NCBI GenBank assembly: GCA_003388555.1
Contig: QQVD01000034.1
Coordinates: 186,001-250,000 of the forward strand
Length of the DNA: 64,000 bases
Source of the DNA: Acidobacteriota bacterium
GTDB taxonomy: Bacteria > Acidobacteriota > Thermoanaerobaculia > Multivoradales > Multivoraceae
Reading direction: 5' to 3'
In this document: piece by piece, positions 16,992 through 33,002 of the stretch
Position numbering within the stretch: position 1 is the first letter of the stretch
How the letters are laid out: each line of letters begins with the position of its first letter
Program-made: the position numbers and the translations under genes
Notes under the pieces: generated by a model
Databases searched by the model: none
Seen by the model: only the letters and a program-made list of their open reading frames with translations
What the model was told of the DNA's origin: nothing

Positions 16992-16995
<4 letters not shown>
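16390..16995 (-). CDS. Small PAS-like protein with a C-x2-C ... C-x2-C zinc-site pattern
   Basis: 201 residues; the GTG start at 16995 overlaps the stop of the CheB/CheR hybrid by 4 nt (GTGA). The N-terminal half reads as a PAS-like sensor (DGEWDAFAAQN, GRSLWEFVRDPALRAIYEALF, FPFRCDSPHQRRTMRM). The C-terminal half has CSIC and CEEC pairs about 45 residues apart, the usual spacing of a structural zinc knot. The coupled translation suggests it serves the hybrid kinase as a sensory or adaptor subunit. That role is inference; I know no characterised homologue. Confidence 0.75.
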
Positions 16996-21413
<4,418 letters not shown>

Positions 21414-30922: not shown

Positions 30923-31434
30923 GGCGGGCCGCCCGATTCGGTGGACGCTCCCGTGCTACCACCCGGGGCGGTCGCCTCCGCGGTCCCGTCGGCCGACGAT
31001 TCCCCGGTGGGCGACAGCTCGGTCGCCTGGCGGGCGATCATCTGCGCGACGCGACCGAACTCGTCACGCAGATTGGACTTGACGAGGTATCCGGCGACGC
31101 CGAGCTTCAGCGCCGCGCGCACGTCGGACTGATCGGCCGAGGTGGTCAGCACGAACACCACGGTGTCGGCGATCGCCCGGTCGCGGCGGAGCTCGGCGAG
31201 CATCTCGAGGCCGTTCATGCGCGGCATGTTGAGGTCGAGCAGGACGAGTCGGGGAAGGCGGGGATCGAGGCCGGGGCGCTCGCCACGTAGCAGCTCGAGC
31301 GCCTCGATCCCATCGCGAGCCTCGACGATGCACTCCTCCATGCCCAGCTGGCGGAAGCCACGTCGCAGGCCCTTGCGATCGACCTCGTCGTCGTCGACGA
31401 TCAGCAGCCTGAGCCTGATGCCGCCGGGCGTCAT
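30919..31434 (-). CDS. Single-domain response regulator, Rcp1-like
   Basis: 171 residues from ATG 31434 (ATGA overlap with the upstream kinase stop). Receiver with LLIVDDDEVDRKGLRR, phospho-acceptor Asp67 in LLDLNMPRMNG, the Thr in VLTTSADQSDV and the Lys in GYLVKSN. The long insertion before the Asp (LRGERPGLDPRLPRL) and the S-A-D/V-K-S-N pattern are typical of regulators paired with phytochrome- and ethylene-receptor-type kinases. After the receiver only a Ser/Gly/Thr-rich tail of ~35 residues remains, so output must be by protein interaction. Confidence 0.92.
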   Translation of the reverse strand: MTPGGIRLRLLIVDDDEVDRKGLRRGFRQLGMEECIVEARDGIEALELLRGERPGLDPRLPRLVLLDLNMPRMNGLEMLAELRRDRAIADTVVFVLTTSADQSDVRAALKLGVAGYLVKSNLRDEFGRVAQMIARQATELSPTGESSADGTAEATAPGGSTGASTESGGPP

Positions 31435-33002
31435 CGGATCCGACTCCCGGTCGACCACGGCAGCAGCGGCCAGTCGAAGGTGAATACGGCGCCACGGTCG
31501 CCGTTGGAGCCCACCGCGACCGTGCCGCCGAAACGCTCCACCAGCTTCTTGACCAACGCCAACCCGACGCCCGACCCCTCGACCTCGTCGCGCGGGCGCA
31601 GGGTCTGGAAGAGGTTGAAGATGCGCTCCCGGAACGCCTCGTCGACGCCCGGACCGTCGTCGACGACGGAGATCACCAGCCGCGATCCCTCGACACGGGC
31701 TGCCACCTCGATCGTCCCGGTGTCGCGATCGTGGTGCTTCACCGAGTTGGCGATCAGGTTGGTCAGCACCTGCTGGAGCGCGATGCTGTGGCCCTCGAAG
31801 GGAGGAACCGAGTCGAGCTCGGTGTGCACCGTGAACCGGTCGGGCACGGCGGCCAGGTTGACGCTCTCGGCGACGAGCCGATCCAGATCGATGACTCGCA
31901 CCTCGAGGTCGGCGTGGCCGGCGCGTGAGTATTCGAGCAGGCTGTCGAGCAGCGCGTTCATGCGCCCGGTCCGGCTCTGCAACAGCTGCAGGTGCTCCCG
32001 GCTCTCTGCGCTGACCTGCTGTCCGAGGTCCTCCTCCAGCCACGATGCGAGTTGGCCGATGGCCCGCAGCGGCGCCTTGAGGTCGTGCGAGGCGACGTAG
32101 GCGAACTGGTCGAGATCCTGGTTGCTGCGCTCGAGCTCGGTGGTGCGCTCCAGCAGCTGGCGCTCGGCGCTCTTGCGTTGGGTGATGTCGTGGGCGATGA
32201 GCGAGTGGCCGATCAGGGCACCGTGCTCGTCGACGATCGGCGACGCCTGCGCCAGCAGATGCACGAGCTCCCCCGACTTGCGGCGGCTCTCGATCTCGAA
32301 TCCGCCGGCCCGGTCGCCCGCGGCGAGATCGCCCGGGTCGACGCCGATGAGCTGGCGCAGGTCGCCGCCGAGGACCTCGGAGGGAGCGAAACCGAAGATC
32401 CGCTCCGCGGCGCGGTTCCAGCTGGTGACCCGGCCGCGGTTGTCGACCGCCACGATCGCTTCGTAGGCGGAGTCGACCAGCGCCGCCAACCTCGCCTCGT
32501 GCGGGTTGCGCAGCGCCAGGACCTTGGGCACCGCGGGCACCAGGGCGACAACAGTCAACCAGGAGACTCCCGCGGTGACACCCTTGGCGACTCCCATCGC
32601 CCTGTAGGCCGGCCACCAGAACATCGCCGCCTCGAAGAGATGGGTCAGCCCGCAGGCGAGGATGAAGGTGACGAAGAGCCATCCCAGCCCAGGGAAAGGG
32701 ATGTCGCGGCGTCGGCGTAGCAGCAGGGTCATGACGATCGGGATCGCCATGTAGGCGCCGAAGATCAGCAGGTCCGAGACGATGTGCAGGTTGCCGTGCG
32801 CCGGGGTCCACTCGCCGCAGCGCCAACGGGCCGGGAAGCCGCTGGTGTCGAACAGGCGGCCCCAGAAGCCCGGCGCAGCCGGCTGCGAGGCCGCCAGCGG
32901 CGCCGCACCGCAGAGAGCACCGAGAGCTCCCGCCGCGAGCGGCAGCCTTCCGGTCGGCGCGACCGGGCGTCGTCGGGAGCGGCTGGCGTGCGGCCGGATC
33001 AT
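31431..33002 (-). CDS. Histidine kinase with ETR1-type ethylene-binding N-terminal domain
   Basis: 523 residues. Three helices at ~72-165 form a sensor with the ethylene-receptor residues in exact ETR1 spacing: Asp77, Tyr84, Ile87, Pro88, Ile114, Cys117 and His121 correspond to Asp25, Tyr32, Ile35, Pro36, Ile62, Cys65 and His69. In ETR1 the Cys/His pair holds the copper ion needed for ethylene binding. A PAS domain (~170-275), HisKA with His306 (AYVASHDLKAPLRA) and HATPase (NLIANSVKHHD, DDGPGVD, GSGVGLAL) follow. Relative to plant receptors it has a ~70-residue N-terminal extension containing an extra hydrophobic stretch. Genes for a single-domain regulator and a REC-PAS-kinase follow with 4-nt overlaps. 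The ligand is inferred from residues only. Confidence 0.88.
   Translation of the reverse strand: MIRPHASRSRRRPVAPTGRLPLAAGALGALCGAAPLAASQPAAPGFWGRLFDTSGFPARWRCGEWTPAHGNLHIVSDLLIFGAYMAIPIVMTLLLRRRRDIPFPGLGWLFVTFILACGLTHLFEAAMFWWPAYRAMGVAKGVTAGVSWLTVVALVPAVPKVLALRNPHEARLAALVDSAYEAIVAVDNRGRVTSWNRAAERIFGFAPSEVLGGDLRQLIGVDPGDLAAGDRAGGFEIESRRKSGELVHLLAQASPIVDEHGALIGHSLIAHDITQRKSAERQLLERTTELERSNQDLDQFAYVASHDLKAPLRAIGQLASWLEEDLGQQVSAESREHLQLLQSRTGRMNALLDSLLEYSRAGHADLEVRVIDLDRLVAESVNLAAVPDRFTVHTELDSVPPFEGHSIALQQVLTNLIANSVKHHDRDTGTIEVAARVEGSRLVISVVDDGPGVDEAFRERIFNLFQTLRPRDEVEGSGVGLALVKKLVERFGGTVAVGSNGDRGAVFTFDWPLLPWSTGSRIR

Follow-up and report, generated by a model that had tools for sequence, protein, structure and literature searches.

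Operon and domain organisation

The window, that is, the whole analysed stretch of 64,000 nucleotides, contains an overlapping three-gene operon on the minus strand (Table 1). The first gene, which has an ATG start and no internal stops, encodes a sensor histidine kinase. Its N-terminal membrane domain matches the Pfam family ETR1_N (PF25487) with 114 bits against a cut-off of 27 (E 3e-33), and the PAS, HisKA and HATPase_c domains, all above the Pfam cut-offs, lie C-terminal to it. The initial annotation claimed a complete kinase core, and this agrees with the scores of both kinase domains and with the presence of the H-box (ASHDLKAPLR), the N-box (NLIANSVKHH) and the G boxes. The second gene encodes a lone receiver domain similar to Rcp1, and the third, another histidine kinase preceded by a receiver (REC) domain.

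Table 1. Genes and features of the operon; the ethylene-binding domain is abbreviated EBD.
Feature	Coordinates	Strand	Evidence and remarks
EBD-PAS-HisKA-HATPase_c sensor histidine kinase (P0001), 523 aa	31431..33002	-	Pfam: ETR1_N 70-164, PAS 171-273, HisKA 297-362, HATPase_c 405-513
Ethylene-binding domain ETR1_N, residues 70-164, three predicted membrane helices	32511..32795	-	Profile, alignment, hydropathy
Residues marked in the ETR1_N domain			Asp77, Tyr84, Ile87, Pro88, Ile114, Cys117, His121, Lys140, Ser147, Pro159
Single-domain Rcp1-like response regulator, 171 aa	30919..31434	-	Pfam Response_reg, E 9e-21; ATGA overlap with the kinase stop, junction CCGATGACGC
REC-PAS-HisKA-HATPase_c second histidine kinase, 475 aa	29495..30922	-	Pfam; GTGA overlap with the regulator stop, junction GCCGTGACGA

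Among the Pfam matches with E up to 0.1, the membrane domain has none to a MASE-type family. The protein does match the MASE3 kinase model of NCBIfam, but below the model's cut-off and with the best stretch in the ATPase part (residues 410–512). The profile check thus supports the assignment of the membrane domain to the ethylene-binding family.

The host genome contains one ETR1_N domain, that of this kinase, and dozens of other histidine kinases. When the full kinase protein was used as a query in the contig scan, mostly relatives of its kinase half were returned; the EBD alignment, in turn, was too diverse to be used as a pattern scan. Elsewhere in the window, at 16992–21413 on the minus strand, there is a gene for a 1473-aa protein joining CheB, CheR, PAS, HisKA, HATPase_c and receiver domains.

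The ethylene-binding domain

The initial annotation listed seven residues of the ETR1 ethylene pocket, and all of them are indeed present (the first seven in Table 1, Asp77 to His121) with the claimed spacing of 7, 3, 1, 26, 3 and 4. When the window is translated in all six frames, this spaced pattern occurs in one place, while 3.4e-7 occurrences are expected from the residue frequencies. In the alignment with ETR1, the residues of the kinase at the seven binding sites read DYIPICH, and Lys140, Ser147 and Pro159 are the equivalents of ETR1 Lys91, Ser98 and Pro110. The ETR1 segment used in the alignment spans residues 1–129 and agrees with the published sequence positions 25, 32, 35, 36, 62, 65, 69 and 91. 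Lys91 is presumably a key residue alongside Ser98 and Pro110, the residues of signal transmission. The latter two are important for the signal output of ETR1 (PMC6586836).

Hydropathy peaks at about 71–97, 100–129 and 136–165 coincide with the expected membrane helices. AlphaFold predictions for the full protein and for the EBD alone place helices at 67–96, 104–127 and 131–154 at low confidence. The structure predictions were built from the window's own protein and chosen loci, and the pLDDT of the membrane domain, about 30–70, is too low for reading the pocket geometry, including whether Cys117, His121 and Asp77 face a common site.

All seven residues are retained in 29 of 60 ETR1_N-like sequences, a set that includes plant ETR1 and the window kinase; the remaining sequences have at least one varied site or are incomplete. 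As judged from these alignments, the conservation of the pocket in the window kinase is real, yet common to many relatives. The N-terminal PHGxC motif, typical of most bacterial EBDs, is replaced by ARWRC in the window kinase, and ETR1 lacks this motif as well.

Comparison with known systems

AzoEtr1 of the soil bacterium Azospirillum brasilense is a 525-aa EBD-PAS-HK protein whose gene is followed by an overlapping gene for a 135-aa response regulator. Yeast-expressed AzoEtr1 binds ethylene, and loss of the protein alters biofilm formation and root colonisation (PMC11819568). We recovered this locus from the Sp7 plasmid record, with reading frames of 525 and 135 aa. Residues 50–513 of the window kinase align to residues 8–512 of AzoEtr1, nearly end to end (E 1.6e-42). 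The two kinases have the same domain order, similar lengths (523 and 525 aa) and all seven pocket residues, and in both cases a single-domain regulator gene lies directly downstream with a short overlap. However, the kinase core of AzoEtr1 belongs to another HisKA subtype, the EBDs are 42% identical, the regulators are 35% identical over 81 residues only, and no counterpart of the third gene, encoding REC-HK, has been reported at AzoEtr1.

SynEtr1 (slr1212) of Synechocystis is likewise a histidine kinase with ETR1_N, and a response regulator receives its signal by phosphorelay (PMC11819568). Unlike the window kinase, which has no photosensory GAF domain, it is also a photoreceptor.

Plant ETR1 shares with the window kinase the pocket residues and the Lys91, Ser98 and Pro110 positions, but the identity of the domains is 25–27%, PAS stands in the window kinase in place of GAF, the gene belongs to a bacterial-type operon, and just before helix 1 there is one cysteine instead of the two in ETR1.

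Finally, the kinase core matches bacteriophytochrome kinases from PDB (E 1e-26), and the adjoining regulator is Rcp1-like, which resembles modules of the phytochrome/Rcp1 type; the difference is in the sensory head, an ethylene-binding domain rather than a phytochrome.

We assign the window kinase, with a probability of about 0.8, to the ethylene-receptor-type sensor histidine kinases of the bacterial AzoEtr1 kind. Rather than a new type of sensor, it is a sound and well-preserved example from a known receptor family, and its operon context is useful. The view that a functional ethylene sensor is remarkable in itself when it comes from neither plants nor cyanobacteria is outdated: ethylene binding has been shown for AzoEtr1, and PMC11819568 cites saturable binding in Synechocystis and in the fungus Rhizophagus irregularis, as well as earlier surveys with putative receptors in other bacterial phyla. 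Given these publications, the grounds for novelty in the initial annotation had already been met, and ethylene sensing by bacteria beyond cyanobacteria is established.

Distribution of the ETR1_N domain

ETR1_N matches were observed in two of 60 near relatives, in seven of 149 genomes of the class and in 14 of 297 genomes of the phylum, all sampled. Locus L029 led to an alphaproteobacterial genome, and of 398 genomes sampled from its phylum, 28 have such matches. The EBD tree joins the window sequence to that of locus L010 from the same order (support 100/98). These two are placed, with weak support, among the Pseudomonadota sample and away from the rest of the sequences from their own class. 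The patchy occurrence and the position in the tree suggest, although they do not prove, horizontal spread of the EBD. A scan of viral contigs with three EBD sequences yielded no matches.

L010 (L057:3994-5499, genome G048) is the closest EBD relative by sequence. Helix 2 is missing from its domain, as is most of helix 3, and the Cys and His ligands are gone with them. The gap reads as an in-frame deletion, which may be either a real event or an assembly fault of the draft genome.

Several other loci are atypical. One family of the same phylum (f25, L042–L051) has several ETR1_N-like domains with many pocket residues lost; some belong to GGDEF proteins, and a single genome can have as many as four. 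Perhaps this family has moved to another ligand. In a family of the same class (f18, L032–L034), long proteins carry ETR1_N domains in their middle part, and these domains have Asn instead of Asp25 and Asp instead of Lys91. In the Bdellovibrionales locus L012:721-7041, an ETR1_N frame is followed downstream by a kinase frame, an Rcp1-like regulator, a probable heme oxygenase (judged by its sequence; no Pfam family matched at the applied threshold) and a phytochrome that has an HWE kinase. This locus links ethylene-type and light-type sensing.

Gene cassettes and ACC deaminase

The regulator from the window operon is 36–44% identical to regulators beside related kinases. Three loci (L011, L016, L026) encode kinases that share the subtype of the window kinase and carry PAS or GAF heads; next to them, in order, come a lone regulator and a gene for REC-HK or REC-GGDEF-EAL. 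Cassettes headed by ETR1_N vary in composition: EBD-PAS-HK, regulator and REC-HK-REC in L097; EBD-HK, regulator and REC-GGDEF in L100; two genes only in L098. In L062, from the same phylum, the order is different, EBD-HK, REC-HK, regulator. These arrangements are most simply explained by a shared signalling module in which the ethylene-binding domain is one interchangeable sensor head. More tentatively, the three genes might represent a recurring ethylene-signalling cassette, spread across bacterial phyla by the swapping of sensor heads and found here alongside ACC deaminase. In the open-access literature, searched with incomplete coverage by titles, abstracts and term counts, we found no paper on a cassette of an EBD-HK, a regulator and a REC-output gene.

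1-Aminocyclopropane-1-carboxylate (ACC) deaminase destroys the plant precursor of ethylene. Its gene is present in the host genome (G000, contig C8, 108781–109785; L104:1492-2511), and the product scores 566 bits with TIGR01274 against a cut-off of 392. The motif DPVYEGKSMQG fits true ACC deaminase and not D-cysteine desulfhydrase, if the residue assignment that we assume is correct. Of the 149 genomes from the class, ten have an ACC deaminase above the cut-off; among the seven carriers of ETR1_N, this genome alone does. As about 0.5 co-occurrences are expected by chance, the co-occurrence of the two genes is suggestive only.

Proposed ligand and mechanism

Homology to the characterised receptors leads us to expect that the window kinase binds copper and ethylene and takes part in phosphotransfer. 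The three-helix domain would dimerise and hold Cu(I) between Asp77, Cys117 and His121, with ethylene bound at the copper. The binding would shift helix 3 and, via the PAS domain, alter autophosphorylation at the H-box histidine. The phosphate would then be passed to the single-domain regulator, to the REC domain of the second kinase, or to both, the second kinase feeding other pathways. Three copper-transport ATPases, all over the family cut-off in the host genome, could handle the copper.

An alternative is an intact Cu(I) site with another natural signal, be it copper itself, CO, acetylene or some other small alkene. The conserved residues define a copper pocket in the first place, the copper site of ETR1 being formed by Asp25, Cys65 and His69 (PMC12643061), and the organism has no known plant contact. 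However, the window kinase retains every one of the Tyr, Ile, Pro and Ile residues that ETR1 needs for ethylene beyond the copper ligands; AzoEtr1, which has this set too, binds ethylene; and the ACC deaminase of the genome fits contact with plant ethylene chemistry. A signal other than ethylene seems improbable.

Even less probable is that the membrane domain is merely an anchor or a dimerisation unit, with PAS providing the real input and ethylene playing no role. Kinases of the same subtype that have PAS or GAF inputs and no EBD do head the same module (L011, L016, L026), and the pocket has been lost in some EBD-like domains of the phylum, helix 2 being absent from L010 of the same order. 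On the other hand, the window kinase has kept the seven residues and the three other key ones although the EBD identity has fallen to about 25–42%, which suggests selection on the pocket. A two-input receptor of light and ethylene similar to SynEtr1, to which an ethylene domain on a bacterial histidine kinase might point, was rejected as extremely unlikely, since Pfam finds no GAF or phytochrome-type chromophore domain in the protein, only PAS.

A well-preserved kinase of the ethylene-receptor type is added to a class where such genes are rare. The small set of gene cassettes makes the downstream partners of bacterial ethylene receptors nameable and testable. If the three genes indeed form an ethylene-signalling cassette alongside ACC deaminase, this cell would both sense ethylene and be able to remove its plant precursor.
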